From: Thalassia testudinum
Taxonomy: Eukaryota; Streptophyta; Magnoliopsida; Alismatales; Hydrocharitaceae
DNA length: 64,000 bases
Reading direction: 5' to 3'
NCBI GenBank assembly: GCA_037157565.1
Contig: JAZHRO010000055.1
Location: forward strand, 39,649,001-39,713,000
Shown: piece by piece, positions 6,545-56,318 of the stretch
How the letters are laid out: each line of letters begins with the position of its first letter
How positions within the stretch are numbered: position 1 is the first letter of the stretch
Notes under the pieces: model-generated
What the model was told of the DNA's origin: nothing
The model's input: the letters and a program-made list of their open reading frames with translations, nothing else
Databases searched by the model: none
Made by a program: the position numbers and the translations under genes

Positions 6545-6935
6545 GACGCTATCCAGACGTCTAAAGGAGCCTTAGGACGTCCGAAACTGGCACCGAACGT
6601 CTGACAGCACACAGAGTGCTAAGGTATGTGCTTTGTATGCACCTGTATGCACATACGTAATTTCTTTACATGTTGCTTTTAAACTTGCGCGTGCATGCGC
6701 AGATACGAGATGTTGGAAAGGCACATGGCATGCCTTTTGAGGTGCTTTAGGACATCTGGATGTCTCTACAGACGTCTGATAACCATCTCAAACGTCTGGG
6801 TGCACTAACAGATGTCTGGAAGGACCCCAGGATAGCTGTGAGGGGTTCAAGACATTTGAGATCAGAGCAAGGAAACAAGGTGAGCCTCTGTGGTCGTCTA
6901 AGACGTCTGGGTCTAGTCCTAGATGTCTGATTTTA
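6545..6935 (+). repeat. Cluster of CCAGACGTCTGG-type palindromic motifs (Tekay U3)
   Basis: About ten exact or one-to-two-base variants of the AGACGTCTG motif occur in under 400 bp, spaced irregularly. Variants such as GACATC or GATGTC are what CpG deamination of GACGTC would give. The same motif clusters occur in the U3 of the Sirevirus-like LTRs in this window. The ACGT core resembles plant bZIP binding sites; function is inferred only. Confidence 0.7.
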
Positions 6936-7640
6936 GTCAGAGTACACGTTTTTGGCCTATTTAGGGTAGGGTCCCAATGGACTCGATTTTGTGCAAACGA
7001 AGTATCGTTGGTTTCAGTTCAGAGTTTTCTACGTGTTGTGTCACTCGTATACTTTTGAACTCATTTGATGTGATTTGGTCAATTGTATAGGTCTCCAGCT
7101 AGTAGAGTATACGGGGCTCGCGGAGATGACGGGATATGTGATTCGAGCCCCATTCCACCTGTGTATCCCAGTAGAGTGGTATATCTCAATATTATGAATT
7201 AATTAATCAAGTGCATGCTATCTTAGAATGAATTGATTGAACCCTAGGATATGAAATGAACCCTAGGGTAGAATTGAGTGAATGAACATTGCTTAAGCCA
7301 CACGGTCTATTATGAAATGCATGTTAGAACCCTTAATGCTAGAAATGAATAGTTAAATGAAATGATGCTAATTTCAGTTGTTAAATCACGAGCTACCTGT
7401 TATATGGTTAAGATCCGAGATGTGAACAACGAGATATACATGTCGTGAAATGAAATGAAATGAATACAATACATGAACCCTACGGAGAACTAGAAGAGAA
7501 ACTCACGTATACAGAACGAATATCGTATGTAGGAGGGAAGTGAGCTGGCCCTCGAGTACACTGTACCAAGGAGAGCAATTTTCCCTTTTGCATAGAAAGT
7601 CAGCTGGCCCTTATGTACGCGGTACCGAGGAGAGCTACCG

Positions 7641-7795
7641 TTACTTTAGTGTAGGGGGGAGCCAGCCGCCCTTGGGTTGAGACCCCAGGTTAAGAATGGC
7701 CCCCTACACCAACTCTTGTTACCTTAGTGTAGGGGGGGTGGCTAGCTGCCCCATGGGGCCCAGGGTTAGGACTGGCCACACTACACCAACTCTTG
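7641..7795 (+). repeat. Two ~78-bp tandem units in the LTR
   Basis: Units 7641-7718 and 7719-7795 both run from a TTAC(T/C)TTAGTGTAGGG start to CTACACCAACTCTTG. The solo LTR on the minus strand has a comparable pair between about 32660 and 32845, so the duplication is an old feature of the LTR family. Confidence 0.7.
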
Positions 7796-8697
7796 TTAGG
7801 CTCACTGGGCAAACCAGGATAGTTCAGCGAGGGTACGTAGACTGTTTTAAGGGGCGAGACCCTTGTTCTGAGAGGGCAAGGCCCTATTTTGTTCTATGTT
7901 GTACATAAGCGTTGACTCACTAGCGGAAACGACTGACCGCATGCCAGTGCGAGGTAGCTACCCGTGTCGTAGTCACTACTACATCACGATCGTGACCTCA
8001 AGGTGGTAGACCAGGTGTAGGACTACCATGGGGGCTCTCCCGGCTAGGAGAGTGCCACGTGTATATCCTAAATCGCGGAATAAACTACAATCAAGATCAT
8101 TCCCTTAGGGAACAAGAGGATTAAGAAATGATGTGGATCCTTACTAGAATAATCGAACCAAAAACACCTAGTTGAGATAAATGGAAATGAATGAATAGTT
8201 AATTGCTTATTTCTTTTTGTTAAATTGCATGTAAATAGCTTAACCACCACTCTACTCAACATTAGCTAACTACAGATTATATAACCATGTTCAAGCAAGT
8301 GAGTTAAGCAGCCAACGCCACCGGCTGCAGAGGATATTAGGCCCAGCTGAGTCCAACCATAGTTGTTACTTTTCTGTTTCAAAGCTCTTTTTGTAGTAGT
8401 GAGTACCTTTAGCATGTATTAGTTGTTCCTACTATATTTCTATTCTATTTCTTTCTGTTCTAGTTGTGATGGCTGTGTATGTTGTAGTACTCTTCCGCTT
8501 GAGGCATGTAATATTTTTGAGCCTTCTCGTTCTGATTTCCATTACTGTCTCTTATTTATTTCTGCCTAGTTACATTGCATGTGTGATTGTAGAATGCTTT
8601 CTACTTTTGGTTATTTCTCGTTGGACAACTAGGTTTTGGGATTAGTCGAGGCGAGCTGATCTTGGGGCCTGTAGGGAGCTGGAATCAGTTCATAACA

Positions 8698-8986
8698 CAA
8701 ATGTGTGTTTTTGCAACAGTTAAAATAATAACTGCTACCTAATCCCAATTCTAACTCCCCCAGCAAAACTTGAGAAGGCGCGATTGTCAAATGCGCTTTT
8801 GCAACGATTTACATAATAACCGTTACTAATTGTCGGAATGTGGTGACAATGTTTATGCTACTCATTGCCAACGTATAATTGGCTGATATGTTGGGCATGA
8901 ACTAAGGCACGCAGGAGATGAAATATTTGACAATTCGCAAGGGGTTTTAGTTTTAATCATTGACAATTCCAAATGAGATGGTGTTG
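8698..8986. other. DNA-transposon-like flank, left half
   Basis: Non-coding sequence with two similar blocks, GCAACAGTTAAAATAATAAC and GCAACGATTTACATAATAAC, plus repeats of a TTGACAAT type. The same kind of repeats continues at 14617-14822, across the Sirevirus-like insertion. Spaced subterminal repeats suggest the end of a DNA transposon, but no terminal inverted repeat was identified. Confidence 0.35.
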
Positions 8987-9375
8987 TGTTGGTGTAAGGG
9001 CACCACGATCATTAATTTTGATGATAACAAAACACTTATTTAATATTGCAATTTGAGTTTACGAGTTTGAGGAAAATTGCAAATAGATACAAGTGTGAAG
9101 AAGCTTAAGCTCGCATCCATGGTGGATTGGAGGAGCTTGTTGGAGGAGAAGGAGCTTCGCGTGGAGAGAGAGCTTGAAGAAGATGAAGAATAGGATAGAA
9201 GTTCATTCTATTCTTGTATTTTGTCTTTGTATTTGTATCTTTTAGTTCTTTGCTTAGATCATTTCTTAAAGAGCTTCAAAATAACAAAATAGTAGTCCTA
9301 GGATCACTTACTCAACCCTACGTTACTTAGACATCGCAGAGAACTTAGAAAATCAAAATAGGTTTCAAACAGCCT

Positions 9376-9970
9376 GATCAGACGTCCAATCTGAACATCA
9401 GACGTCTGATCTTAGACTTTAAGACATTTGATTGTTTGATCAGACATCCAAACACTTAGCCTGGACTTTGTGCTCTCTGTCTGTTGATTGCAGACGACCA
9501 GCCCTTAGTCCAGACATCATAGAAGATGTCTAATGACCTTGCCAGACGTCCAACTAGAGGACCGTTAGCTTAAGAAATCTAATCATTGAGAATTAACCCT
9601 TAATATGACTGACATTCACTTTCAGACATCCGTAGTATATCCCAGACGTCTGGGATATACTACGTTATAGCAGTTTAAACCTCGGGAAATCTATTCCCGT
9701 AGTGATTTATGTTTCCAAATGTCCAAACCTAGTGCCAGACGTCCGATCTATCGTCTGTGCAACTTACCCTAGAACCCTATTTCAATCTTGACAGAACAGG
9801 AAGGAAACCCAATTAGAATTAGACATCTGATTAATTTCTTAGACATCTTAAAAATCTTTTTTAGATGTCCATCTTGATCTAACCCAATCCAGATCTTCTA
9901 CTTTTTTAGATTAGACGACCAATTCCTAGATCAGATGATAGCCCAGACGTCTGATAATAGATTCAGACAT
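9376..9970 (+). repeat. AGACGTCTG palindrome cluster in copia U3
   Basis: More than a dozen copies of CAGACGTC(T/C)(G/A) or its C-to-T / G-to-A decayed forms, all upstream of the TATA box at 10083. The equivalent cluster in the 3' LTR (13200-13830) is more decayed. Confidence 0.72.
9631..9664. repeat. 34-bp perfect palindrome
   Basis: Seventeen bases (9631-9647) are followed immediately by their exact reverse complement (9648-9664), with the GACGTC core at the centre. The other LTR has only the short core at the matching position (about 13455-13480), so the long palindrome is specific to this copy. Confidence 0.9.
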
Positions 9971-10082
9971 CTACTAGCCCTGTTAGAATCATAAATAACC
10001 CTGATTTGCTTGGGATTATTCCCAACAGCTATAGAAGCCTTCCAACGGCTAGAAAAGGCTTTTAAACCCTTCTTAGGGCCTT

Positions 10083-10090
10083 TATAAATA
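10083..10090 (+). promoter_or_regulatory. LTR TATA box
   Basis: TATAAATA within the conserved context CTTTATAAATAGAGG. The 3' LTR has the same box at 13957-13964. Confidence 0.65.
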
Positions 10091-10736
10091 GAGGAGAACC
10101 CTTCCCTTGCAATACACACCTAGAAAACACTATTTCCACTCCTATTGTGAACAAGAGAAGAAAGGAATCATTTAGAAGTGATATTGTTCTCCAAATCCTT
10201 GTCCACATTCTTGAGAGCTTCATCTTCGCTGCACACCCACTCTCCCATCCTCACATTCGAGAGCACCGTTTGTGCCCTTGTGTGGTTCACGCACTTCGCG
10301 TCAATAGCCGACACACTTCTATCAAAGGGAAGTTTCTATTGCCTATAGTAGCTAGTTTTAAATATTTACTTTGCCTTCAGGATTGTGTATTATTGTCTTT
10401 GGTTAGGTATTCGCCTTGCGAATTCCCATCTCCCTTGCAAGAGAAAATACTCCTCGTGAAGAGGAGGGGTTTGAGATTATGCTACTCGGGTTCAAAGTAG
10501 CGTGGTTGTAAGAGGTTGAGTCACCCTCATTTTAAGTTACTTGGGTAGTGGATTCGATCGACTAGTCGATCGAAAAATCCTAAACCGAGTGGTTTAGTGA
10601 CAATTTTTACCCGGGTTTGGGTTTCCACCTAAAAATACCTTGTGCACTTGTGATTGCATTCTTTTGTGAGATTGATTATTTATATTTCCACTTCATTTAT
10701 CACGCAAATCTCACCCCTTTCGACAGAACCCACATT

Positions 10737-10750
10737 TGGTATCAGAGCAA
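10737..10750 (+). promoter_or_regulatory. Primer binding site, initiator-Met tRNA type
   Basis: TGGTATCAGAGC starts two bases after the 5' LTR end at 10734. Confidence 0.88.
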
Positions 10751-10787
10751 GTCTTGCACATCGACATTATAACCCGGCAAGGATCCA

Positions 10788-12490
10788 ATGGAGGGAAGCA
10801 TCACTGGCACGAGACACGTCGAGGGGCAGTCCACTACCCATCCTTCCTACTTTGATGGGAGAAACTACAGGTATTGGAAGCTCCAGATGAAGACATGGCT
10901 TCAAGCCAATGACTTCACCATTTGGGCTAAGTGCGAGACCCCATTCGACATCCCGGAGAGACCTACAAGAGGCTTCTCGCAGCAGCAAGTTCAGGAACTA
11001 TCGCTCAACTCCAAGATGATGAACACTCTCTATTGCGCATTGAGCCCGGAGGAATTCAATCAAATCTCACAATGCGCCACTACATATGAGATTTGGCACA
11101 CATTAGAGGTAACTCATGAGGGTACCTCAAAGATAAAGGCTTTTAAAATTAACATTCTTTCTCAAGATTTTAAATCTTTTTCTATGAAACCTAATGAGTC
11201 TTTAAGTGAGATGAACACTAGGTTCACTCTCATAGTAAATAATTTGAAAGCCTTAAGTAAGACCTTCATAATGGAGAGCTTTAAGGAAAGCTACTTCGTT
11301 CCCTTGGACCGGAATGGAAATAAAAAGTCACCGCCATCGAGGAAGCGAATGAAATTGAAGAGCTCAACATAGAGGATCTCTTAGGCAATCTTATGACTTA
11401 TGACATGAAGATGAAGCCGGAGCCGAAGCCAAGGAAGACCCTCACCTTCAAAGCCACTTCAGACAGTGAGGTAAGTTCTGACAATGAAGATCTTAGATTT
11501 TTATTTCAAAAATTTTCTAATTTTTGTAGGAACTCAAAGAAGGAGAAGATGGAGAAGGAGAAGGAAAGCCTAAGATGTTGCTATCATTGCAATGAAAAAG
11601 GGTACCTTTGACCCGAATACCCCCTTCTTAAAAAGGAGAAGTAGGAGAAGGAGAAGAAATACAAGAAAAAGACGTTCCAAGATACATTGGATGACTCAAG
11701 CTCGGAAGAAGAAGAAGATCCCGAAGAGAAGAATGAAGTCGCTTGCATGGGCTTCATGGCCATCAAAAGCAATAGTGAAAGTGAAGACGACAATAAGGAG
11801 GTACGTTCTGAATTACAAGATGCTTTTAATGAACTTTATGAGCTTAGTAAGTCACTAAAAGCAAAAAATAAAAACATGAAAAAGAATCACAGTTTTCTAA
11901 AATCTGAAAATGTAAGATTAGAGATTCAACTTAAAGATCTAGAAATTAGTTCTAGTCCTAATATTCCTGAAAATGATGACTTGTTAGAGAATAATAACCT
12001 AATCAATGAAAATAATAAATTAATTGAGGAGAACACTAGCTTAAAAATTGAAATCTCTAGTTTAAAAATCAAGATGCATGTTATAGAAGATAAGCTTGCA
12101 TATCTTAAGAAGAACTCTAATAAATTGTTAAATAGAGTTAGCACTAGTTAAAAGGTTGAGAAAGGATCTCCTTCAAGGAGACCCGCTAACAAATCCGGAT
12201 CCAAACCAACTTGGATATCAAAAGATCAACTAGAATCATGTTTTGCAGGTTTCAAAGGAAACTACAACGTGAAGGATTGGACCTACAAGCTCAAGGATGG
12301 TCAATTCAAATTGGGAGGACCAAAGAAGAAGACGGGAAGATCGACAAGAAGACCGATGGGTGATCGAACCGCCATGCATCGACCGCTCAATTGGAGACCG
12401 GCTCCAATGCCCAAACCACCAAGCTACGGATGGGAGCCCCGTCCATTTTGGCATCAACCTCCAATTGGGCCATGTTATTGGCCTTGGTAA
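10788..12490 (+). pseudogene. gag: Sirevirus-type gag with long coiled coil (broken)
   Basis: Gag of a Ty1/copia Sirevirus-like element, reading from ATG 10788. The N-terminal copia gag domain shows YFDGRNYRYWKLQMKTWL, YCALSPEEFNQIS and IWHTLEVTHEGTSKIK. A deletion or frameshift near 11280-11350 shifts the frame; it resumes with NEIEELNIEDLLGNLM. The zinc knuckle at 11579-11620 has three lesions: His to Tyr, Arg to TGA, Cys to Tyr, all C-to-T or G-to-A. About 150 residues rich in Leu, Lys, Glu and Asn follow (11700-12140), with a coiled-coil look, as known in Sirevirus gag C-termini. A TAA at 12149-12151 precedes a final basic, Pro/Trp-rich tail to 12490. No pol follows. Confidence 0.8.
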
Positions 12491-12544
12491 GTGAGGTAAA
12501 TTCTTTACACTCTACTTTATGTTAATTTTAATTGGTAGCATTTA

Positions 12545-12831
12545 GATAGGGGGAGATAAAATTTCTATTTGTCCATCATTAAGGGGGAGAAAGATTTCCT
12601 TCATTTAGATAAGGGGAGATCTCAAAAGATAGCACAGTTGTATTTCCATTAGAAAGGGGGAGATAATTATATAGCTATCTTGTTATGTGAGAAAGAATTA
12701 GAAGAGCATATTTTAAGGGAGTGTATAGGATGAAATTATTAAAATTGTTTAAACCTTTTTGATAATGTCAAAAATGGGGAGAATTTTTGTATTTATATTT
12801 ATGGTTTTGTCATCATCAAAAATGGGAAGAT
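12545..12831 (+). promoter_or_regulatory. Multiple polypurine tracts
   Basis: AGGGGGAGA-type tracts occur near 12547, 12581, 12611, 12655 and 12774, with AAATGGGAAGA directly before the 3' LTR (about 12819-12830). Repeated tracts of this kind are a described Sirevirus feature; the LTR-adjacent one is the likely plus-strand primer. Confidence 0.75.
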
Positions 12832-14616
12832 TGTTGGCGCAAAGGTACCACAATTATTAATTTTGATGATAACAAAACACTTGTTATTTGACATTTGCAA
12901 TTTGAGTTTATGAGTTTTAGGAAAATTGCAAATAGATACAAGTGTGAAGGATCTCAAGCTCGCGTACATGGTGGATTGGAGGAGCTTGTTGGAGGAGGAG
13001 CTTCGTGTAGAGTGAGAGCTTGAAGAAGATGAAGAATATGATAGAAGTTCATTCTATTCTTGTATTTTGTCTTTGTATTTGTATCTTTTTGTTCTTTACT
13101 TAGATCATTTGTTAAAGAACCTCAAAGTAACAAAATAATAGTCCTAGGATCACTTACTCAACCCTAGGATACTTAGACATCTCGTAGAGAATTTAGAAAA
13201 TCAAAATAGTTTTCAGACAGCCTAATTAGACGTCCAATCTGGACATTAGACATTTGATTGTTTAATCAGACGTCCAAACACTTAGGCTGGACTTTGTGCT
13301 TTCTATTTGTTGATTTCAGATGACCAGCCCTTAGTCCAAACGTCTTAGAAGACGTTTGATGACCTTGCCAGACATGCTACTAGAGGACCTTTGGCTTTAG
13401 AAATCTAATCATTGAGAATTAACCCTTTATATGACTCACATTCACTTTCAAACATCCGCAGTGTATCCCAGACATCTGATAAGTAGACGGTAGGCTAAAA
13501 TCTGACCCTAATTACTCCTTCAGACCTTGTAGCTGTTTGAGCCTCGGGAAATCCATTCCTGCAGTGATTTATGTTTTCAGATGTCCAAACCAAGTGCCAG
13601 ACATCCGATCTGTCGTCTGTGCAGCTTAGCCTAGAACCTTGTTTCAATCTTGACAAAACAAGAAGGAAACCCGTTTAGAATTAGATGGCTGATTAGTTTC
13701 CCAGATGTCTTAAAACACTTCTTTAGATGTTCGTCTTGATCTAACCTAGTCTAGATCTTCTACATTTCTAGATTAGATGACCAATTCTTAGATCAGATGA
13801 TGGCCCAGATGTCTAATAATAGATTCAGATGTCTGATAACCTTGTCAGAATCATAAATGACATTGATTTCAACCTGATTTGCCTTGGGAAAATTCCCAAC
13901 AGCTATAGAAACCTTCCAACGGCTAGAAGAGGCTTTTAAACCCTTCTTAGGGCCTCTATAAATAGAGGAGGACCCTTCCCGTGCAATACACACCTAAGAA
14001 ACACTACTTTCACTCATATTGTGTCCAAGAGGAGATAGGAATCATCTAGAAGTGTTGTTTTTCTCCAAATCCTTGTCCACACTCTTGAGAGCTTTGTCTT
14101 CACTGCACACCCGCTCTCCCGTTCTCACATTTGAGAGCATTGTTTGTGCCCTTACATGGTTCACACACTCCACGTCAATAGTCGACGCACTTCCATCAAA
14201 GGGAAGTTTCTATTGCCTATATTAGCTAGTTTTAAATACTTACTTTGTGGCTCTATAGGATTTTGTATTATTGTCTTTGGTTAGGTATTCACTTTGCGAA
14301 TTTCCGTCTCCCTCACGAGACAAAATACTCCTCCTGAAAAGGAGGGGTTTGAGGTTAAGCTACCCTCAAGTTCAAAGTAGGGTGGTTGTACGAGGTTGAG
14401 CCACTCTCGTTTTAAGTGACTCGGGTAGTGGATTTAATTGACTAGGTCGATTGGAAAATCGTAAACCGAGAGGTTTAGGTTGTGATTTTTACCTAGGTTT
14501 GAGTTTCCACTTAAAAATACCTTGTGTACTTGTGATTGCATTCATTTGTGAGATTGATTATTTATATTTCTGTTTCATTTATCATGCAAAGCTCACCCCC
14601 TCCGTCAGAACCCACA
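12832..14616 (+). repeat. 3' LTR of the first Sirevirus-like element
   Basis: Starts TGTTGGCGC and ends CCCACA, with TATA box at 13957-13964. It differs visibly from the 5' LTR by many transitions and small indels, so the insertion is not recent. The AGACGTCTG motifs at about 13200-13830 are mostly decayed. Confidence 0.88.
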
Positions 14617-14822
14617 TGCTGCACAACACGTGAAGGGAAAACTTGCATGTGGGGAAAATATTATTATACTTCAATTGACAATGATTCTTGAAGAAACCAT
14701 TGCTAGTAGAAACCTAAACCCTATGTTTTTTTTGGGATGTGCATGCCAAAAATATTATTTTAATTCAATTAGAGATGGTTGTTTAAAAATCATTGCCAAT
14801 AGTGTGATATTAGGGCACTGAT
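14617..14822. other. DNA-transposon-like flank, right half
   Basis: Continues the sequence interrupted by the Sirevirus-like element. Repeats of TTGACAATGATT / AAATCATTGCCAAT type recur, resembling the left half at 8698-8986. No transposase was recognised. Confidence 0.35.
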
Positions 14823-17286: not shown

Positions 17287-18639
17287 CCCACCCGCCTGTG
17301 TGGGCGAGTGTGAGATGGGGAGCTAACCCCCTTATTCTGGTCGATGGGGAAGCAAAGGCAAACGACTAAGTAGCACCCTTACCTTTCGTTGACCAACAAT
17401 GTGGGACTAAATGACCCAGCTCTGCTTGCTACGCTTTGTGAAATTGGAGCTCTGATGTGGTTGTCTTCTTCACTCGCATGACGTCGGTCAAAGGTTGCCT
17501 GAGATCGACCAAACTTGAGATCTAGTCTTTAGATGTCGACGACGAAAGTTAGAGTAGGGTCAGTGAGGCATCACCGAGGTGCTAGTGATGTTGGATGAAT
17601 GGTTGAAGTGGCAGAAGGCGGTGGCTGGCATCAGAAATGATGATGAAGTTCAACGATCACTTGCAACAAGCATACAAACCCTCAACCCCAAATTAAACAC
17701 CTTGGAAGTTTCGAGAGGAGCTCCCAAAGCTAAGCCCTAACTCAATTTAGTCAGAGGCTGGTTGGAGGAGCTTGGCGAAAAAGATTCTTCGAGCTTCAAT
17801 GGCGGAATAGAGAAGGGAGGAAAATACCTAATGATCTGGAGTGAGAAAATTTAAATCACTAATTGAAGGGGTAAGGAGAGAAAGCCCTAACCTAATTAGA
17901 GAAGAGGGAAAATAATTACCTGAGATGACGCAAGGTGGAAGAAGAAGAGTTATGGTTAGAGTGAAGGAAGGGGAGAGAGCAGGCTAGAGCTCATGTGAAG
18001 CTCAGGCAGATGATGGGGAAGGTGAACGCAGTCCTTATTGTATGTGGGAGTAGGTGATGAAGTGGGTTGAAGAAGCTCCGAGGTTCTTTAATAGCGATGG
18101 CTGAAGAAAGAAGAGAAGATTGGTTAGGCAATTGGGCATGAAATGTGCACGGTCATGATCAAAAGTTTATATAGAACTCTTTGGTGAATCAATTTGAATC
18201 GGACAAATTGATTTGGATCGCAAATTGCTTAGGATTTCATCCTTGATTTTGCGGCAATGAGAATGGCTGTTCTTGCCATTCAAAGAGCTTAGGAACATGC
18301 TTACTTGATTCGTCATGAAATGAGGATCAATCCCACCAAATTTGGTGGTATTTGATTGAGAAAATTTCAATCAAATCTTTTTGCCAGTTTACACGAAGAA
18401 GATGTTCTACTACTTGCTCGATAAAGAAGATGGCTGGCATTAGCCAGGGACCAGAATGAAGAAAATTTGAAAGCTGAGGATGTTTTTGAAAAGAAGGTGA
18501 AGATGAAGTCTAATTGAGCTCACGTTTTTTGGGCAACCTATTTTTGATCTAAGGAATCTAATGGTGACATCAATTTTAAGTTTTGATGAAGTTAGGTTGG
18601 TCAATTTTGTATTTTAACCCAAAATGAAATAATCAAGCT
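17287..18639. other. Unassigned, probably repetitive sequence
   Basis: No ORF of interest and no recognisable protein match. It contains AATGTGGGAC near 17400, AGAAGAG-rich stretches at 17800-18000 and an inverted repeat of GATTGA / TCAATC type at about 18350-18380. It may be decayed LTR sequence. Confidence 0.35.
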
Positions 18640-22917: not shown

Positions 22918-22930
22918 ATCAGAGTGCATG

Positions 22931-24542: not shown

Positions 24543-24544
24543 AA

Positions 24545-30913: not shown

Positions 30914-30918
30914 ATGAT

Positions 30919-31764
30919 GCATGGCCGTGCGTCGACTTCAGATGTCTGAACCCCTACTTGACAGTCTGGATCCAACTCCAGATGTCCGACCTATCCTCCA
31001 GTCGTCTGGGAGTGCTTCCGGTCGTCTGGTAAGCTGTCCAGACGTCCGAGACGCGTGGGAGGGAATGACCCGCGCCTTCCCGAAGCTATCTCTGCACACG
31101 TCAGAACGTATCTTCTACATTTAGCTACGCAGATCGTAGCGGTGGTGCGGCCTGCATGGCCATAACCACAAGAGGGTCGTACCTTCGCAGAACACTGCTT
31201 TTAGACATCTGGTGTCATCACCAGACGTCCAATACGTCTTCTGGACGACACATCAGACGTCTGATTCTTGGAAAATCCCAGAACCAGACTACCTTCTGCT
31301 CCTCTTCGCCACGCGCAGCCACAGCCTCTCCTCCTCACCTGCAGCTCCAGCTGCAACAAGTGTCGAGGAAGTCTCCCCTGATGCGCTCCTCCTCCCGCAC
31401 GCGCCGCTCCGGCCGTGCGTCCTCCGGCGAGCTCCCATGAGCTAATGAGCTCAAGCTCTTTCTCCTCTCTTCACGCTGCCTCTCGCTCTCACGCTCTCTC
31501 TCACACTCGCCCCTCTCGCTACAGTGGAGAGGAAGGAGGGAAGGTGGCTGTGGTGGAGTGGGGAAGAAAGGAAGGGGGAGAGGGTCTTATATAAGGATGC
31601 ACTAGGGTTCTGCGGGGAGGGAAAAGAAGAGAGAGAAGAGGGAAAAAGGCAGCCTGCACACAGCCGCAGCGTGCAAATGCGAAGCTACGTACTAATTTTT
31701 CAATTTCCAAACGTCTGACCAGATGTCTGACCGACCGTTCAGACGTCTTAAAGGGCTCAGAACA
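30919..31764 (-). repeat. Truncated Tekay-family LTR, minus orientation
   Basis: Shares with the solo LTR the order of GACGTC-type motifs, the GATTCTTGGAAAATCCCAGAACC segment (compare 33885-33915) and GA/CT-rich tracts. It is interrupted by the solo LTR and resumes at 34482-34504. Its left part is missing; the Athila/Tat-like element lies at that edge. Confidence 0.6.
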
Positions 31765-34481
31765 TGTAACAACCCGATTCCCGAGTCCCTACGAGACACA
31801 AGAACCGGACCGACTCTACTAATCCCAAGACCTGGTCGTCCAACGAGGAAGTAACCAAAAGAGCAGTAAAATAAACCACATTCAGCATGAATATAACTAA
31901 CAGTACGAAAATACAGCAGTAAGAAAAGAAACCACTACAGTATGTACCACCACAACAATAGAACAACATTCATAACATAATATGAACTGCAGGTAAAGAA
32001 AAGTACAGCGGAAACAAGAACTACTCACTACAGTGGAACCAAAAAGAGGTACAAGAGAACAGTGGTAACTCTACTGGACCCTACTCGGCCCAGCATCCTC
32101 TACAGCCGCTGACCCTGGCTGCTCAACACCTGGTCCTGAAAGGTAACGAGTGTAACACGTCAGCAAAACGCTGAGTAGAGTGGTAGCTAAACTAAAGAAA
32201 CAGTAAAGTGTACAGTAGCTGTTTTAATTTTCTTCCTTTCTTTATTTACATCCTTCTATTGTTTCACAAATTATCTATTTCTCAGATCCTTCACTTGATC
32301 TCGAATGTTCCTCGTGGGAACGATCTTGATTGCAGTCTTTTCCGAACAGTAGAAGTAGCACGTGGTGCTCTCCTGGCTGGGAGAGTCCCCCGTGGTGATC
32401 CTACTCTCAGTCAACCACCCCAAGGTCACTAACAGACGTAACGGTGACTACAGCACGCGCGGTAAACTCACGGGTAGCTAACCCGCACTGGCACGCAGTC
32501 AGTCGTTTCCGTTAATGGGTGCGCCCAAAGCACAGCACGGAACTAGTACAGGGCAGAGCCCTCTCAGTAATAGGGGTCCAACCCCTCCACAGTAACCAAA
32601 TAGGGGCCTTGCCCCTCCACAGTCCGCGCACCCTCGCCTGACTACCCTGGTTTGCCCCAGTGGGCCTAACAAGTCGGTGTAGGTGGCTAGCAGAACCCCG
32701 GGGCCCGTGGGGTAGCTAGTACCTCCCTACACTAGTATCTCTCCTCGGTACTACGTACACGAGGGCCAGCAAGTCGGTACAGAGTGGCCAGTCCTAACCC
32801 CAGGTCCCTGGGGCGGCTGGCTCCGCTCTGCACTAAACAGGGGGATAGTCGCTCTCCTTGGTACTCCGTACTCAAGGGCCAGCTCACTTCCCCAATTCTA
32901 TTCCATTCACTTTCCAGGAGTTCTACTCCTAATTCCCCATAGGGTTCCAGCTCTTTTAACTCAGAACATCAAGGTTTCACTTTCCAGTTTCACGTTCTTA
33001 CAATCCATATTCTCAATCACGTTTATTTATTCATAACAGGCAGCTGTTAATTCAATTCACAGGAAGCTATTATTTCCTTTCCACATTTTCCAAGACTGCA
33101 GTATTCATACATTCCACTAGTTTTCCCATCCTAGGATTCATGCCATATCCTAGGATCTATCATACAATCTAGTTTTCCAGCCCTAGGATTCATGCAACAC
33201 CCTAGGATCTACCATTCAATCTATTTCTCATTCCTAGGATTCATGCAATGTCCTAGGTTCTATTTTTGGTTTCATAATTTAACAGATTATACTTAAAGCC
33301 ACTCTACCGGTTACAACAGGCGAACTGGGGGCGTGGTCGGGAATCCCGCGTGCCTCCGCAACCGCCGAGACTGCAACGGAATGGGGTCCTATCATGAGGA
33401 TTAAACACAAGGAATTTCTCAAAATAGTATACAGCTACTGTAGACAGGTAGAGGATTTAATTCCAAAAAGAACGTAACTCGAAACGTGGAAAACGGAACC
33501 CGAACGGGCCCTAAACGGGTCGAAAACGACGAAACAGTGCAAAATCAGACGTCTGGAACTTATTCCAGACGTCTTAAAAAGTTGATCAGGGGTTACCTTG
33601 CTCCGCGTGGTCTCTCAAACGTCCAGAATCCTGCGGGGGCATCTGGCCTAGTTCCCAGACGTCCGATGGTCACCCAGGACGTCTGGAAGTAGTTCCTACC
33701 GTCTGGCACTGCAGCCAGACGTCTGATTCGCGTTGGATGCGAATCTCAGAACCTATGCGTACCCATTTCCTCTCTCTCTTAGTACGGTCAGTCGAAGGGA
33801 AGGAAGAAGAGGGAAAAAGTCACCTTTCAGACGTCTGGACAGTCTTCCAGACGTCGTTCCCGTCGTCTAGCTAGAAGCACAGACGTTTGATTCTGGAAAA
33901 TTTTCCAGAACCAGGGGCCAATCGCCCTCCGCTCGCGACGCCCGACCGCGCTGCGAGTGCTCTGCCTGCTGCTCGAGCCGCAGCAGTCCTCCCGCGTCGC
34001 TCCGCACCCGCTGCGCCCCCTGCCGGCCGGCCCTAGCAGCCCCGGTGAGCTCGCCCTCACGGTCGAGCGCCTCTCCCACGCGTAGCACCTCCTCCCACAC
34101 TCACCGTGGCTGTCGCTGCAGCTGCACCCTCGCGCTCGCTCTCGTGCACTAGCTGAAGGAGAAGAGGAAGGAGGCGGAGGTGACGGGAGTGAGGGAGAGG
34201 CGTGGCCCTTTTAAGGCCGCGCGAGGAGGAGAGAGAGAACGCGGCAGAGGCATCTGCGGCGGCAGGAGAGAGGGAAAAAGAGGGAGAGAGAGAGAAAACG
34301 CAAGTCTGCACGCTCAGGCGTGCAGACAAACAGTAGCGTGCCAAAATAACCGATTTCCAGACGTTTGGAAATGATCCCAGACGTCTGGACCGACGTTTGT
34401 AAGTGATTCCAGACGTCTGGTATGACGTCTGGGCTACCTCCCGGACGTCTTAAAAGACGTCTGGAGTGCCCGTTCGTAACA
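31765..34481 (-). repeat. Solo LTR of the Tekay family, minus orientation
   Basis: A 2717-bp LTR. Its minus strand starts TGTTACG and ends GGTTGTTACA. GAACA occurs on both sides (31760-31764 and 34482-34486), a perfect target duplication. The 31765-31870 part is the reverse complement of the LTR ends at 962 and 8697. No internal sequence is present, so LTR-LTR recombination removed the body. Motifs CCAGACGTCTGG are well preserved at 33540-33730, 33826-33890 and 34355-34460. Confidence 0.85.
33540..34460 (-). repeat. Best-preserved CCAGACGTCTGG motif cluster
   Basis: At least ten sites with an exact GACGTC core and several full AGACGTCTGG words, grouped in three blocks (33540-33730, 33826-33890, 34355-34460) separated by GC-rich and GA-rich DNA. 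It lies near the U3 start of the solo LTR. Confidence 0.75.
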
Positions 34482-34504
34482 GAACATAACGGGTCTTTAC
34501 AACA

Positions 34505-45133: not shown

Positions 45134-45137
<4 letters not shown>

Positions 45138-47756: not shown

Positions 47757-48129
47757 TGTTGGTACAAAGGCATCACAATCATTGATTTTGATGATAACAA
47801 AATACTTGTGATTTAATATTTGCATTGAGTTTAAAGTTTCAAATTAATTGCAAATGATAGCAAGTGTGGAAGAGCTCAAGCTCAAGATCATGAACGAATG
47901 GAGCAGCTTGATGTAGGAGAAAATCATGAAGAAGCTTTGGAGGAAAAAGAAAAAAAGAATAGGATAGATTTCTTTTTTATGTACTTGTAATCTTTGTTCT
48001 TTTATTTTTAGATATATGTTAAAGAACTCAAAATATAACACCCTAGGTTCTAGACACACTTACTTATCCTTGGACACTTAGGCAATTCCTAGAATCAACT
48101 TAAAAAACTAAATCAGTAATCAATCAGCC

Positions 48130-48790
48130 TTATCAAATGTCCAATAATTATATCAAATGTCTAATAGTGACTTTCAAGTCGTCTAATAATAGGATCAAAC
48201 GTCCAATACCCAATAGCCTTCAGAGGTTCTGACCTTAATATTCAAACGTCTAGATATAATTGTGGATGTCTGAAGACCTTCTCAGACATCTGATGAAAGG
48301 ACCATTGGCCTATTGATGCCTTTGTCAGACCAAATTATTCATGAAATAAGTTGCAATTATCTTATTACTTTTTCCAAACATCCAGAGAGCCTTCTAGATG
48401 TCTAATAAAGAGACGTTAGAACTAATCTGACCTAAATATAGATTTGTTAGATCCAATTTAACCATTAACTTCTCAAGAAATCAATTCTCGAAGGTTACCT
48501 ATAGTCTCAGACGTCCAGTAATATGTCCAAGCATCCTACAGATGTCTAAACAGGATCCCTGTTTGGATATGATCAACTCAGGAACATTTCCAGGAACCAA
48601 CCCTTCCATTATTAGACCTCCATTATTTGTATCAAAGGTTTTAAAACACTTCCAGACGTCATATCTTTGTGGATAAGTACACTGTTTAGATCTAATTAAC
48701 TCTAGGAAAACTGACCTCTTTTTCAGACATCCAGACTTTCAGTAGATGTCTGATCAGACGTCTGACCCATATTTTAAACGTCTGATTTTG
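48130..48790 (+). repeat. Decayed AGACGTCTG motif cluster
   Basis: About fifteen words of AAACGTC, AGACATC, AGATGTC and AGACGTCTGA type. The 3' LTR has the corresponding cluster at 55070-55700. Both lie upstream of TATA. Confidence 0.65.
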
Positions 48791-48958
48791 CTGTCATACC
48801 TAATTATGACCCTGATCTCATTAGATTTCGGCCTGACTTTTCTTCGACTAACCCCAATGGCTATAAGGCATCTCCCAAGCCTTCTTGAAGGTTCCTACAG
48901 CCTCTATAAATAGACTAGAGGCCTTCCTTTGTTAGACACATCATTGAGATATTACTTT

Positions 48959-48977
48959 CAACTATTATACACATTTT
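48959..48977. repeat. Target site duplication of the LINE, left copy
   Basis: CAACTATTATACACATTTT; the right copy at 51723-51741 differs by one base. The uninterrupted site is seen in the other LTR at about 55877-55896. Confidence 0.8.
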
Positions 48978-49165
48978 TTTTAGCAAATGCGGGAGCAAAT
49001 CTTATTCATCCCCCACTCCCTGGAGGCAAGCAAAATGACAGGGGGATCGAACTAAAACCTACTAGGTACATAAAAAAAGGGAACATGACTCGTGGCCTAG
49101 TACAATAAAGAAAGCAACAAAAGGACCAACAACAAAACAAAAGGTCAATGAATGACATAGGGAAA

Positions 49166-49890
49166 CTAAAGCTTATCGAGCCTAATGATGCCTTGGATGC
49201 ACTTGTTGAGATTCACAGGATTGTTGTAGAACTGCCAATCACTTCCTGCTAAGCCAGCAATCGCATAAGCAAGTGCATTCGCAGTAGGGTATATAAAAGT
49301 AAGCGAGAGAATTTTAGCCTTGTGCTTAAGAACCTCCTTGTAATCTACTTTAGCCAACAATTCACCGAAACTTTCCCTGTCCACCAAAAATACAAGAGAG
49401 TAGATTCGCACTCTAACTGAACTTCAGAGAAGTGAGGGGTAGCATTAAGAACATGACGGGCGGTATTAAGGATAGCCAGCTCCTTAGACCTAGCCTTGAA
49501 CCTGCAATTAACACTCAAAAGGAAATCCCCAATAGTATTTCTCACAACCCAAGTCAGAAGATAGTAGTCTTCGCTTCTCCAAACAACAATATTAATCATA
49601 ACCCCAACAAAAGGTCTGACCCAGCTAAGAATAAGAGATTTAGGGCATTGTTGAAGAATCCAAATAGATAAGTTAAAGTTATACCAATTCTTACCAAGCA
49701 CAATGGGAATATAATTAGAGGATATAAGATCATTCCTAAGCTTATTACGAAGCCACCACACATTAAACCATATGAAGCTAATGAGGCCTTTAAGGACGTG
49801 AGTTCTAAGGGAGCTATTAGGGACCTGATGATATGAAAGAAGTGATTTGGGTCGATAGGAGTAATGAGATGCACAGAGAAAACCCACTTG
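49166..49890 (-). pseudogene. LINE RNase H domain (broken)
   Basis: C-terminal RNase H (RVT_3 type) of plant L1 elements. The frame reads ELAILNTARHVLNA, EVQLECESTLL, then after a frameshift VDRESFGELLAKVDYKEVLKHK and ANALAYAIAGLAGSDW, matching the block order of this domain up to its C-terminal helix. Two frames are needed (49345-49887, then 49166-49411). It lies downstream of RT and zf-RVT on the minus strand. Confidence 0.7.
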
Positions 49891-49899
49891 GCGACCTGG

Positions 49900-50499
49900 T
49901 TAGCAAAGGTGGCCTTGAGAGAAAAGGTGTGTAATAGTTTCGCCCTTAGGCTCATCATTGCAGCAAGAGCATTTCAAGGGAAACAAAATAACAAGTCTAT
50001 TAATATTATCATCAGTTGGGAGCCTAGAGAGGATAATGAGCCAAACCAAAAGAGATATGTGAAGGGGAAGCTTAAGATTCCAAAGGGCTTTGGCTACAGC
50101 ATCAACAAGGGAAGTGGCAAATTGGGACTGGTAAGCCGAGGCAATGGTGAACCTACCATCGGAATTGGTCGTCCAAATGGGGATATCCTTCCCAAGATCA
50201 AGATTAATGTGGGAGATTTGAAGTCGGAGATTAATGGGGATATGAGTCATGATAGGGTGATTGTGGGATATCTGCAAAAAATCTATAACACAAACAGGGG
50301 AGATGTTGACAGTATCAAGAAGAAAGGCTTTAAGAGGTGAATCACCAATCCAAGTCTCCATCCAGAAGTTCACCATGCCTTCATGAATATCCCAACGGAT
50401 CAGAGGTTTCATAAGAAAATACGCATCCCAAAGAGCTTTATCTCTAGCAGGAAAGAACGGGGAACTGGAGGGGACACTGCCATAAAGACGTTTCATCAT
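49900..50499 (-). pseudogene. LINE zf-RVT region
   Basis: Uninterrupted 199-codon frame between RT and RNase H. It shows the conserved order KALWDAYF, WMETWIGDSPL, WTTNSDGRFTIASAY, then LWNLKLPLHISLLVWLIILSRLPT and a Cys/His cluster (CSCCNDEPKGETITHLF, then HLC). This is the reverse transcriptase zinc-binding domain of plant LINEs. The surviving frame indicates a comparatively young insertion. Confidence 0.8.
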
Positions 50500-51725
50500 C
50501 TGGGCATAAGGGGAATTGGAAAACAGAATATGCCAAACTCTTCATCCTAAGGGAAGATAGGAATGCATTGAGATCAAGTATACCGAGGCCACCAAGGTGA
50601 AGAGGTTTGGCAATAGTATCCCAAGAAATCCAGTGGTGTTTAGTATCTCCAGGGGAAGAGCCCCAAAAAAAGTTGGCCATGATAGAATGAAGCTTCCTGA
50701 TTATGAACTTAGGGACCTCTAAGACAGATAAGATGTGTATAGGGACAGAGGAGAGGACATGTTTAATGAGGAGCCTGGAAGCAGAAGAAAGTAAGTTGGC
50801 TTTCCAACCAGCCAACTTAGACTGAATTTTACCAATGGTGTCGTAAAAATAGGAAGTTTTAGCTCTACCCGAGAAGATTGGGCAACCAAGGTAAGTGAAG
50901 GGGAAGGAGCCGGATTGGATGCCACCGGCCTACGAGATACGATTGACCTTATCAGTAGGTAGATTTTTCCGCATAAAGCAGCCGAAGGCTTCTTGGTAGG
51001 AATTAAGGAATAGGGACAAATTAGCAATAGACTGGGGGGCTGCCATTAAGAAAAAGAACGATGTCATATGCATAGAGGAGAGACAATGGAGCACAAACAC
51101 CACGTTTAACAAAATAAGGCTTGATTTTATCCCGGAAGGCAAGTTATTTAAGGCCTCTAATGAAGGGTTCCATGAATATGTCAAAAAGATTGGGGGACAA
51201 CGGGTCGCCCTATCTCAATCCCCAAGACGTCTTGAAAAAAGGAGAGGAGACACCATCAACAAGGATGGAAGATCCCTCATGTTCGACAAAAGCCCAAATC
51301 AAGGAGAGCGCAATCAGAGAGAAGCCAAATCTCACAAGGATTTGAAAAAGAATATTCCACTCCACTCTATCATAGGCCTTTTGAAGGTCCAACTGGATAA
51401 TAATATTCGATCCGAAGACTTTGCGATTGATGTGTTGAGTGAGTTCAAAGGTGGTAGCAATATGATCATGAATGGAGCGATTTTTGATAAAGCCAGCTTG
51501 CTCAAAAGATATAAGTTTGGGGATGATCGTAGCAAGTCTTTTGGTAAGGATGCCCGAAATAATCTTGTAGATAACGTTACATAAGCTAATCAGGTGATAA
51601 TCAACCAAGTTCTCAACATCCAATTTTTTAGGGATCAGGATAATAAACATATTGTTGAAGGATCTAGGGCCTTTATGATGGGTGAAGAAGTAGGAAATGA
51701 CCTGAGTTAAGTCCTCTTTCAACAA
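50444..51725 (-). pseudogene. LINE reverse transcriptase domain (5' truncated)
   Basis: Starts mid-domain at 51725 with PRSFNNMFIILIPKK, then DYHLISLCNVIYKIISGIL, the AGFIKNRSIHDHI block and LQKAYDRVEWN. The next frame carries the RQGDPLSP-type block near 51190-51215. The YADD box reads YAYD in the third frame (near 51065), so the first catalytic Asp is Tyr. The thumb follows in 50444-50815 (LLIKHVLSSVPIHILSV, FFWGSSPG, WDTIAKPLHLGGLGI). Two or three frameshifts separate these parts. Confidence 0.82.
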
Positions 51726-52261
51726 CTATTATACATATTTTATTAGAGATCAAAAGAAGAGAATTGTGCCCTTGCTCTCTAATCACTACACTCCTAATCC
51801 AAGAGCACCGAAACTCTATTGCGCATTTCACATCAATCTCTTTCGAATTAGGGAAGTCTCTTCACCTATAGAAGTTTAACATCAACATTATATTTTGTGG
51901 CTCTATAGGATTTTTTTCTGTATTTTATATTGTTAGTTGGGTATTCACGTGATGAATTCCCGTCTCCTTCATAAGACAATACTCTTTGTGAAGAAGAGTT
52001 TAAGGTAGACTACCCTCAGTTAAAGTAGTGTGATTGTAAATTGAGATTGTATCACCCTTGTTTAAGTGCACTCGTGGATTTGATCTACTTGGTAAATTGA
52101 AAAATTCAAAGTCAAAAGACTTAGGTGATGGTTTTTACCCCTAGGGTTTCTACTTAAAAATCATTGTCTCTTTATGGTGAATGTTCTTTGTGTCATTGTA
52201 TTTTATTTTGGTATTATTTTTCAATTACACTATTCACCCTCCTCTAGTGTAAAATCTCAGC

Positions 52262-52274
52262 TGGTATCGGAGCG
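52262..52274 (+). promoter_or_regulatory. Primer binding site, decayed iMet type
   Basis: TGGTATCGGAGCG, one A-to-G change from TGGTATCAGAGC, two bases after the 5' LTR end. Confidence 0.75.
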
Positions 52275-52320
52275 TCGTTCTCACATATGCGGAGTCACAC
52301 CCGAAGAAGATCCAAAATTA

Positions 52321-54195
52321 ATGGAGGCAAGCATTGTTGCGACGAAGCACACCGAGGGGCAATCCATCATCCGACCACCTTATTTCGAAGGTAAGAATTA
52401 TCCATATTGAAAATTACAGATGAAAATGTGGTTGCAGCGAATAACTATACGGTATGGGAGAGATGCGAGACCCACTGTTATCCCAGAAAAACCTGCAAGA
52501 GGTTACTCAAGAGTAAATTAAGGAACTCTCTCTCAATGCAAAGGCGACGAATGCGTTATATTGCACATTAAGTCTGGAAGAGTTCAACCGGATTTCACAA
52601 TACTCCACTGCCTACAAAATTTGGCACACCCTTGAGGTAACACATGAAGGGACTTCAACAGTAAAATCATTTAAAATAAATTTATTTTCTCAAGAATTTG
52701 ATCTTTTATTATGAAAGATAATGAGACTTTAAGTGAGATGTATACTAGGTTCATACTTATAGTGATCAATCTCAAGTCACTAGGAAAGACCTTCATAAAA
52801 AGGGAGCTTCAATCCAAGTTACTACATTTCCTCGTACTCGATTAGGAACAAAAGTACCCTTGATTGAGGAATCTCACAAAATTAAAGAGCTCAAGATGAA
52901 GGATCTACTTGGGAATCTCATGGCATATAAGAACATGATGAAGCAAAGGAAGAAGCAAGTCACTCCGGAGCCAAAGATAAAGAAGACACTTGCCTTCAAA
53001 GCCACATCGGATAGAGAGGTAAGTTCTGATGACGAGGAACTTGAATGTCTAGCTAACAAATTTGCCAAGTTTCTCAAGCTTAGGTAATGCAAGAAGGAGA
53101 AGAAGGAAAGGAAGGAAAGCCCAACTCATTGCTATCATTGCAACAAAAAAGGGGCACCTTAGATCGAAGTGCCCACTCTTGAAGAAAGAAAAGGAGAAGA
53201 GGCACAAGAAGAAGTCGTTCCAAGCTACATGGGGCAACACTAGCTTGGAGGAGGAAGAAGAAGAGAAATTTCAAGGAGGAGATCGCTTGCATGGGTTTCA
53301 TGATGATCGTAAGTTATGGTGAGAAAGAAGAATCATTGCAACAAAAAGGGGCACCTTAGATCGAAGTGCCCACTCTCGAAGAAGGAAAAGCAGAAGGAGA
53401 AGAGACACAAGAAGAAGGTGTTCCAAGCTACATGGAACAACACTAGCTCGGAGGAGGAAGAAGAAGACAAGAAAAATTCCAAGGAGGAGATTGCTTTCAT
53501 GGGTTTCATGGTGATCGCAAGTGAGAGTGGCAAAGAAGATAACAACAAGAACAATTCCAACAAAGAAAAGGTAAATTGTTTTATTTTAGATGAGTTGCAA
53601 GAAGCTTTAAAAGAGTTGTATGATCTTAGTAGAACATTAAAGTTAGAAAATAAGAATTTGAAAAAGAGTTCTAGCACCGTAAAATCTAAATAGATAATCT
53701 TATTACTAAAAATCAAGATTTCAATGCCTTTTTCAGTTCTATTAAGTGTAAAAAGAATGCTCTTATTTTGGAAAACCATGATATAATCTTAAAGAACACT
53801 AAATTAATTGAGGAGAATAGCTTACTAAAATATGAAACTTCAATTCTAAAAAGAAAGATGAGTATTACTGAAAAAGACCTTGCTTGTCTTAAATAGAATT
53901 CAGAAAAATTAATTAGTGAGTTAGCTAGAATCACTAAGGAAAATACTATGGTTAATGCTAAATGTAGAAATGGACACACCAAAAGAATTTTTGCACAAAG
54001 GCCAAATGATTGGAATCCAAGTGAACCCCAACCTTGGTCAAGAAACACTATGGAAGACCTAAAAAGATGTGGGTATCTAGATCCCTTGTACAATCTTGTT
54101 TTGTAGATTTTGATGTAGATCCGAGGAACTATCTATATGGAATTCATCAAGGGAGAATTAAGGTTCTTGGCGAACCAAACAGGTATAGTGAATAA
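52321..54195 (+). pseudogene. gag: Sirevirus-type gag with duplicated zinc knuckle (broken)
   Basis: Starts MEASIVATKHTEGQS at 52321, parallel to the gag at 10788. The copia gag domain is broken by a TGA after NYPY and several frameshifts, but ALYCTLSLEEFNRIS and IWHTLEVTHEGTS are clear. The segment with the zinc knuckle occurs twice in tandem: CYHCNKKGHLRSKC (about 53133-53174) and a second copy lacking the first Cys (about 53340-53375). A Leu/Lys/Asn-rich coiled-coil-like stretch follows (53570-53940), then a basic tail with KKMWVSRSLVQ, like the usual Sirevirus gag end, to TAA at 54193-54195. No pol follows. Confidence 0.78.
53114..53530 (+). repeat. ~205-bp tandem duplication over the zinc knuckle
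   Basis: Units 53114-53325 and 53328-53530 share the knuckle, the Lys-rich stretch, the FQATW(G/N)NTS word, the Glu run and the GFM block. They differ by point changes and small indels. Confidence 0.8.
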
Positions 54196-54249
54196 AATCC
54201 ATACCAACGGAGGTAAAATTTTTTTATTTTGATGATCTATTAGGCATCA

Positions 54250-54697
54250 ACATAGGGGGAGAAAATGTGAATTTGGTATATGCTACAGTTCCATTAAAAA
54301 AGGGGGAGATTATCCCTAATAATAGTCAATTTGAATTTTACATAGAAATACATGTATTTAAGGGAAGATTTGAAAGCTTATGAAACTATATTTCCATTAA
54401 AAAGGGGGAGATATCTAGTAACCCTTGTAATTTTCAAATTTAACATAGAAGTGCATGTTGCTAGAGAAAATAAACTTATCTCCTAAATTATGTCAAAATG
54501 GGGGAGATAATAGAAAAGCATGCTTCCTTCATAATATCAAAAAGGAGAGAGTTAATAGACTTTAGAATAGCATGAATTAAGGGGGAGTTGTAGGATAAGT
54601 TGATTAAAATTGCTTAAATCCTTTTGATAATGTTAAAAGGAGGGAGATCTTTTTGAGTATTATTTATGGTTTTATCATCATAAAAAAAAAGGGAAAT
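54250..54697 (+). promoter_or_regulatory. Multiple polypurine tracts
   Basis: GGGGGAG-type tracts at about 54255, 54302, 54404, 54504 and 54583, with decayed GGAGGGAGA near 54641 and AAAGGGAAAT just before the 3' LTR. Confidence 0.75.
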
Positions 54698-56318
54698 CGT
54701 TGATGTAAAGGCATCACGATTATTTATTTTGATAATAACAAAACACTTGTGATTTAACATTTGTATTAAGTTTAAAGTTTCAAATTAATTGCAAATGATA
54801 GCAAGTGTGAAAGAGCTTAAGCTCAAGATCATAAAGAAATGGAGGAGCTCGATGTAAAAGAAAATCATGAAAGAGCTTTAGAGGAAGAAAAAAAGAAGAA
54901 TATGACAGATTTCCTTTTTATGTACTTGTAATCTTTGTTCTTTTATTTTTAGATATATGTTAAAGTGTCCAAAATATAACACCCTAGGTTCTAGACACAC
55001 TTACCTATCTTTAGGACACTTAAGCAATTCCTAGAATCGACTCTGAAAGCTAAAATAGTAATCAGTCAACCTTATCGATCAAACGTCCAACAATGATATC
55101 AGATGTCTGATAATAAGATCAAACATCCAATACCTAATGGCTTGCTTACAGAGGTTCAGACCTTAATATTTAGACGTCCAAACATAGTTGCAGACATCTA
55201 AAGATCTTCTCAGATGTCCAATAAAAGGATTGTTGGCCTATTGATGCCTTTGTTAGACCAAATTATTCACAACATAAGTTGCCATTATTTTATTACTTTT
55301 TCCAAACGTCCAGAGAGCCTTCCAGATGCTAGACCTAATCTGTTGACCCAAATCTAGATTTGTTAAACCTAATTTAACCATTAGCTTCTCAGGAAATCAA
55401 TTCTCGAAGGTTGCCTTTAGTCTCAAACGGCCATTAATATGTCCAAACGTCCTACAGACATCTAAACAAGATCCCTATTTGGATATGATCAACTCAGGAA
55501 CAATTTCAGGAACCAACCTTTCCATTATTAGACATCCATTATTTGTATTAGACATCTTAAAATGCACTTCTAGGCGTCTGATCGTTGTTGACAAGTACAC
55601 TATTTAGATCTGATTAACTCTAGGGAAACTGACCCTTGTTTTCAGATGTCTACACTTTCCAGTAGATGTCTAATTAGACATCTGGCCAATATTTTAGATG
55701 TCTGATTTTGCTGTCAGACCTAATTGTGACCCTAATCTCATTAGATTTCGACCTGACTTTTCTTGGACCTAACCCAAATGGCTATAAGGCCTCTCCCAAG
55801 CCTTTTTGAAGGTTCCTCAATCCTCTATAAATAGACTAAAGACCTTCCTTTGTTAGACTCACCATTGAGATAATACTTTCCACTAATATACATATTTTAT
55901 TAGAGATCAAAAGAAGAGAATTGTGCCCTTGCTCTCTAAGCTCTACACTCTGCATCCAAAAGCACCGAAACTCTACTGCATATTTCATATCAATCTCTTC
56001 CGCATTAAGGAAGTCTCTTCACCTATAGAAGCTTAAGTTCAACATTACATTTTGTGGCTCTATAGGATCTTCCTTTGTATTTTATACTGTTGGTAGGGTA
56101 TTCACGTGGTAAATTCACATCTCCTTCATGAGATAAAATCCTCTTCGAGAAGATGAGTTTAAGGTACATTACTCTTGGTTAAAGTAGTGTGGTTGTAAAT
56201 TAAGGTTGTATCACCCTTGTTTAAGTGATACGCTAGTGGATTTATTCTACTCAGTAGATCAAAAAATCCTAAGTTGAGACACTTAGGTGATGGTTTTTAC
56301 CTTTCGAGTTTCCACCTA
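54698..56318 (+). repeat. 3' LTR, truncated
   Basis: Matches the two parts of the 5' LTR. The TATA box TATAAATA is at 55826-55833. It starts CGTTGATG (TGTTGG expected) and breaks off at GTTTCCACCTA, where CACTACAATAAAA begins. Confidence 0.82.

Follow-up and report, generated by a model that had tools for sequence, protein, structure and literature searches.

Arrays of one 12-bp palindrome in the long terminal repeats of Ty1/copia and Ty3 retrotransposons of Thalassia testudinum: candidate operator-like sites for a trans-acting protein

Palindrome arrays and the elements that carry them

The 64-kb window analysed here (the whole stretch of 64,000 nt, from contig JAZHRO010000055.1 of the 4.26-Gb Thalassia testudinum assembly) is rich in nested retrotransposons, and the long terminal repeats (LTRs) of its Ty3/gypsy and Sirevirus-like Ty1/copia elements carry arrays of the same 12-bp palindrome, CCAGACGTCTGG. 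A site is a 12-mer with at most two mismatches to CCAGACGTCTGG or, when all differences are transitions, with at most four (the loose criterion); the strict criterion allows at most two mismatches. Element boundaries come from self-alignment of the window. The carriers are listed below, with upstream and downstream clusters named by their position relative to a TATA-like box.

6000..8705 (start approximate), plus strand: Ty3/gypsy element A (a Tekay-like chromovirus), 3′ LTR; aligns in reverse with 31771-34483 and also matches the 5′ LTR end at 1-968
6545..6935, plus strand: palindrome cluster of Ty3 LTR A; 7 sites in the downstream-type position, no upstream cluster detected
8987..10735, plus strand: copia element B (Sirevirus-like), 5′ LTR, with its sites at 9378-9954 and TATAAATAG at ~10083
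10773..11369, plus strand: fragment of a copia-type gag belonging to element B (Retrotran_gag_2, E 1.2e-15)
12832..14617, plus strand: copia element B, 3′ LTR, where the loose criterion gives 5 sites
30915..31770, minus strand: truncated Ty3 LTR piece; upstream cluster 31707-31750, TATATAAG, downstream cluster 30938-31264
31771..34483, minus strand: Ty3 LTR; upstream cluster 34357-34464 including a 32-bp tandem repeat, TTAAAAG as the TATA-like box, and a downstream cluster at 33545-33890
47758..48980, plus strand: first segment of the split 5′ LTR of copia element C, with 8 sites, most of them degenerate, at 48242-48785
51725..52156, plus strand: second segment of that 5′ LTR of element C, separated from the first by a LINE-like (long interspersed nuclear element) insertion at 48981-51724
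54699..56318, plus strand: copia element C, 3′ LTR, in which 5 sites, most of them degenerate, lie at 55099-55705

The Ty3 carriers are chromoviruses, with gag, reverse transcriptase (RT), integrase and a C-terminal chromodomain, and 'Tekay-like' is the label given by the initial annotation of this DNA. In particular, pieces of the Ty3 element at L020 match Retrotrans_gag, RVT_1, Integrase_H2C2 and Chromo (E 1.4e-6), with rve just under the cut-off, and its internal region is 76% identical to that of the window's Ty3 element over 4.9 kb. The copia elements have three (B) and five (C) polypurine tracts before their 3′ LTRs, in agreement with the Sirevirus criterion. Merely 2.1-2.5 kb lies between their LTRs (10736-12831 in B, 52157-54698 in C), no pol domain or copia RT is seen in the open reading frames scanned from their partly scanned internal regions, and both look non-autonomous. 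The LINE-like insertion has a minus-strand RT match at 51210-51722.

The window contains 55 sites by the loose criterion, where dinucleotide-shuffled sequence has a mean of 3.0 and a maximum of 8 in 30 shuffles. The initial annotation had placed the palindrome in eight clusters, and 53 of the 55 sites do start inside them, three cluster edges being widened by 5-20 bases for this count; the outliers are at 29049 and 51223. Each cluster slice holds 2-11 sites against 0.01-0.14 expected (300 dinucleotide shuffles each), so site density exceeds the shuffled expectation in all eight. Two of the clusters, 30930-31750 and 33540-34460, belong to minus-strand Ty3 LTR pieces, the first of them truncated. 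By the strict criterion 27 of 29 window matches are inside LTR regions; the copia C LTRs then have one and zero sites, and by the loose criterion eight and five against 0.06 and 0.05 expected. The motif contains an ACGT core, as do the palindromes bound by plant bZIP factors, which makes a bZIP protein a conceivable binder; its flanks, AGACGTCT, differ from TGACGTCA, the flank form of the C-box.

The palindrome is abundant in the genome, with 64,059 exact copies of CCAGACGTCTGG against 424 of the reversed control word. In a 200-kb sample of twenty evenly spaced 10-kb stretches from the first 20 Mb of contig C52, CAGACGTCTG is the most over-represented among the 135 10-mers with at least eight copies (40 copies versus 0.09 expected under a second-order model), and three or more sites are present in 10 of the 20 stretches. 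The sample has 113 sites with at most two mismatches per six exact copies, which, scaled by 64,059, yields an estimate of the order of a million sites.

Across the twenty stretches and the window (264 kb), 189 of 197 sites lie inside LTRs, which occupy 43 kb; 141 are in Ty3 LTRs and 48 in copia LTRs, of which there are only six, from the window and from two loci of the sample. Another eight stretches, each of 4 kb and from contig C1, were picked around exact matches, are biased for that reason and are excluded from these counts; all contain Ty3 sequence, seven of them LTR and one internal region only. The earlier statement that every copia cluster precedes the TATA box is borne out, with all 48 sites upstream of a conserved TATAAATAG in all six LTR copies. 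Among 13 Ty3 LTR pieces with 126 sites, positions being counted from the slice start close to the LTR start, 28 sites are upstream of a TATA-like box near the 5′ end (positions 35-153), and 98 are at positions 447-965, ~250-750 bp past the box and presumably within the transcribed leader. The box lies between both clusters in 10 of 14 copies examined, the other four having no match to the pattern, and the upstream cluster is absent in 3 of the 13 pieces. The initial annotation's assignment of the arrays to U3 of both superfamilies therefore stands for copia and holds only in part for Ty3, where most sites are downstream.

Spacing, conservation and decay of the sites

The sites share a common spacing in both lineages, a feature that is new relative to the initial annotation. 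For consecutive gaps of up to 130 bp, 52 of 101 in Ty3 and 13 of 35 in copia measure exactly 20 bp from start to start, and gaps of 12, 32, 40 and 52 bp also recur. In ten arrays, 27 of 66 gaps equal 20 bp, where random placement expects 1.36 and reaches a maximum of 7 in 2000 placements. Genome-wide, exact CCAGACGTCTGG pairs with 1-30 bases between them number 11,827, versus zero for the control, and among the matches listed 43 of 50 pairs are spaced at 20 bp, six at 32 and one at 23. The 8-base spacers agree at just 2.4 (Ty3) and 2.7 (copia) positions; because the spacers are mostly dissimilar, recent duplication does not account for most of the 20-bp regularity. The Ty3 5′-end cluster partly departs from this, with the 32-bp tandem repeat (34360-34432) in the window and, in some copies (L020 and L025), alternating steps of 12 and 20 bp.

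A search of the 264 kb for all exact 10-bp palindromes with 4-8 G+C has peaks at 12, 19, 20, 32, 40, 52 and 60 bp, while shuffled sequence gives at most 0.7 at any spacing; the 19-bp peak is due to other palindromes.

Two other palindromes were recorded. GTACCGGTAC occurs in another repeat family (L005 at 5243-5887; L018 at 125-281 and 2210-2597), in doublets mostly 19 bp apart with one pair at 20, and is a possible parallel operator array. ATCCTAGGAT occurs in the body of the Ty3 LTR (33117-33263 and 7240-7270 in the window, and Ty3 LTR copies L004-L028) as 19-bp doublets with a conserved spacer inside a 52-bp tandem repeat; at least one doublet is present in 16 of 19 Ty3 LTR pieces scanned.

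Between lineages, the motif is better conserved than the sequence around it. Motif columns exceed the remainder of the LTR in 78 of 78 pairs of 13 Ty3 copies (0.76 versus 0.53) and in 12 of 12 copia pairs (0.75 versus 0.55), and still do so in the close copia copies L010 and L015 (0.965 versus 0.923). Where flanks are 60-80% identical, the motif is the better conserved in 333 of 370 Ty3 and 45 of 53 copia site comparisons. An aligner artefact was rejected as the source of conservation, since the excess persists at these flanks. There are thus signs, from the alignments, that selection has kept the motif in both lineages. A search for compensatory change within sites, as selection for the palindrome itself, found none; positions 1 and 12 of the Ty3 motif avoid joint change (6 double versus 39 and 54 single changes), which is partly an effect of the mismatch cap.

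The opposite holds between the two LTRs of one element. In three elements, motif and remainder are 0.83 versus 0.88, 0.82 versus 0.86 and 0.74 versus 0.87 identical, and among 41 site comparisons the motif is more conserved than its flank in 8 and less so in 32. These changes concentrate at the CG and CHG positions of the motif (2, 4, 6, 7, 9 and 11), with 49 of 159 changed there and 15 of 158 elsewhere, and comprise 54 transitions and 10 transversions. Such a pattern is predicted if the sites are required in active lineages and if copies, once inserted, become methylated and then drift.

A candidate trans-acting factor and its rivals

With moderate confidence, we consider the arrays to be operator-like sites for one dimeric DNA-binding protein acting in trans. 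A dimeric protein that binds double-stranded DNA and aids expression fits the palindromic units, their fixed spacing of two helical turns across unconstrained spacers, their freedom in position and orientation, and their conservation among lineages; the identical site in two superfamilies argues that the factor is supplied in trans, and the host would be its most likely source. Each 12-bp palindrome would bind one dimer, and neighbouring dimers 20 bp (about two helical turns), 12 bp or 32 bp apart would cooperate. Bound dimers may then activate or permit transcription at the LTR promoter; in Ty3 LTRs they would act on either side of the TATA-like box, and in the LTRs of the Sirevirus-like copia elements solely from upstream. 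Unrelated lineages would retain the identical site by exploiting one protein, and after insertion the CG and CHG cytosines of the sites would be methylated and decay. From these sequence patterns we infer that there is such a protein, that it is dimeric, cooperative, activating and of host origin, and that the sites become methylated. A host repressor alone would favour site loss, not conservation.

Several results weigh against a shared activating protein. At Ty3 flanks more than 80% identical, the advantage of the motif is gone (0.87 versus 0.86). The LTR copies share ancestry, so that the pair counts are non-independent, and the within-element pairs are three only. In Ty3 the majority of sites are past the TATA-like box, where an activator array would be unusual. 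The Ty3 cluster with the greatest regularity includes a 32-bp tandem repeat, and its regularity is thus partly duplication. Moreover, RNA from the real arrays folds somewhat more stably than re-spaced controls in all ten arrays compared.

This last result bears on an unlikely alternative, that the palindromes act in RNA, where doublets in LTR transcripts would fold into hairpins of 12 bp with loops of 8 bases, either acting as a signal in replication or giving rise to small RNAs, as has been suggested for Sirevirus palindromes of maize. The folding scores run from z -0.02 to -3.68, with five of ten beyond -2; doublets exceed longer 20-bp runs (27 versus 10 in Ty3, 13 versus 0 in copia), and small RNAs are drawn to palindromes in maize, according to the available text of PMC5311732 and PMC10760457. 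Complementary change between neighbouring sites appears at 3 of 12 position pairs in Ty3 and one in copia (p <0.03, uncorrected), but shared ancestry inflates these covariation counts. RNA pairing as judged by G-U tolerance was rejected, the bias being inconsistent: tolerated changes are weakly in excess in Ty3 (127 versus 96, p 0.04) and a minority in copia (38 versus 82, p 7e-5). Further, a hairpin needs complementary arms, yet each arm here is itself palindromic; runs of three, four or more sites and abutting 12-bp sites are ill-suited to such folding; and a role as small-RNA source alone would not explain conservation among active lineages.

Recognition of the arrays by a VANC-like anti-silencing protein of one transposon family, exploited by the other family, is less probable still. 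Dense, transposon-specific motif arrays do resemble the targets of VANC (PMC5735166, as far as its accessible passages go), and the concentration of within-element changes at CG and CHG positions agrees with an anti-silencing role. However, the known VANC21 motif is family-specific in that source, whereas here the site is common to two superfamilies. No extra gene appears in the sampled Ty3 open frame, where the pieces scanned, outside the protease and RNase H stretches, match only gag, RT, integrase and a chromodomain; none is seen either in the scanned parts of the copia B and C internal regions.

A reading without function, in which mutation bias or the neutral tandem duplication of a 20-bp unit made the arrays, is disfavoured and very improbable. 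The 32-bp tandem repeat and the repeated spacers in young copies, among the matches listed genome-wide, speak for it, but the spacers of the sampled arrays are mostly dissimilar, between-lineage conservation and within-element decay point in opposite ways, and the identical sequence in two superfamilies is left unexplained.

Equally disfavoured, transfer of a single LTR segment between the superfamilies by recombination has in its favour that, before masking, copia LTRs align weakly with Ty3 LTRs across the arrays (best E 1.4e-7), but the best of 72 matches falls to E 0.06 once motifs are masked, and the better-kept half-site differs, left in copia and right in Ty3. The masked search leaves no flanking homology common to both superfamilies, so the copied LTR segment that would have undercut the initial annotation does not appear. 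Its proposal of a module shared by unrelated families holds as a cis-module without detectable common LTR ancestry and with signs of selection, its location in U3 of both excepted. Judged from these alignments, independent acquisition and a transfer too old to see are the options for its origin.

The shared-protein reading has a broader form, which is possible but which we hold only tentatively: one trans factor, with sites numbering of the order of a million, would serve unrelated Ty1 and Ty3 elements alike as their key, transcriptional or anti-silencing, with the palindrome and its 20-bp lattice evolved independently in each lineage and the sites switched off by CG and CHG methylation. If true, the dominant transposons of this genome would share a vulnerability through site methylation, and methylation of regulatory sites would offer a simple model for inactivating much of a large plant genome. 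The 32-bp doublet is a concrete bait for finding the binding factor.

Two further structures of the window lie apart from the arrays. An LTR pair at 22906-24543 and 29284-30914 (91% identical) bounds another element without the palindrome, whose 266-aa internal open reading frame (26366-27163) has no Pfam match. Two direct copies of ~4 kb (18630-22919 and 40163-44212), 77-91% identical and ~21.3 kb apart, are possibly the LTRs of a large element filled by later insertions.

Comparison with known systems

Bousios et al. (2010, PMC2829016) studied the repeated-motif (RM) palindromes of Sireviruses, and in the accessible part of their paper these are called Sirevirus-specific within a Ty1/copia dataset. 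The arrays described here are similar in that the LTR has many copies of a short palindrome ahead of a conserved TATA box, as holds for all 48 copia sites, and their half-site CRGAC resembles those of Usier (GTCGGACGTCCGAC), HOPIE and OPIE-2. They differ in their core, which is CAG-CTG here and CGG-CCG there; the CGG-CCG-core form CCGGACGTCCGG has 311 copies genome-wide (control 86), against 64,059 of CCAGACGTCTGG, and with so few copies CpG decay of the CGG-CCG Sirevirus motif was rejected as the source of the present one. Unlike the RM palindromes, the identical palindrome is also carried by a Ty3 chromovirus, on both sides of a TATA-like box; exclusivity to Sireviruses does not hold, as 141 of the 189 LTR sites are in Ty3 LTRs. 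The 20-bp spacing rule found here is not described for RM palindromes in the available text of that paper.

In maize, one palindrome is found in copia elements and Helitrons, and Ty3 elements are generally without a structure peak (PMC10760457, available passages). The likeness is that of one palindrome in two kinds of transposon within a single genome; the difference is the second carrier, Ty3 here and Helitrons there. The VANC/VANDAL system of Arabidopsis, as presented in the accessible text of PMC5735166, likewise has dense arrays of short motifs confined to transposons, with recognition by a sequence-specific protein known there and proposed here. VANC, in contrast, is encoded by the element, and the VANC21 motif is family-specific and non-palindromic, while here two superfamilies share the site.

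The titles, abstracts and passages of the literature consulted contain no palindrome common to Ty1 and Ty3 elements, no common lattice and no such selection contrast. Among the matches listed for the motif letters, no title concerns retrotransposon LTRs, and scans of viral contigs with the palindrome doublet and with the Ty3 RT led nowhere. Proteins matching the copia gag numbered six, and none of the six names a plant. Palindromic LTR boxes in Sireviruses have been known since 2010, and no single binding factor is named for them in the available part of PMC2829016. Relative to that body of text, the new elements are the sharing with Ty3, the common lattice and the selection contrast; because an unrelated superfamily has the same site and spacing, and the sites behave in opposite ways between lineages and after insertion, one shared trans factor can be argued.

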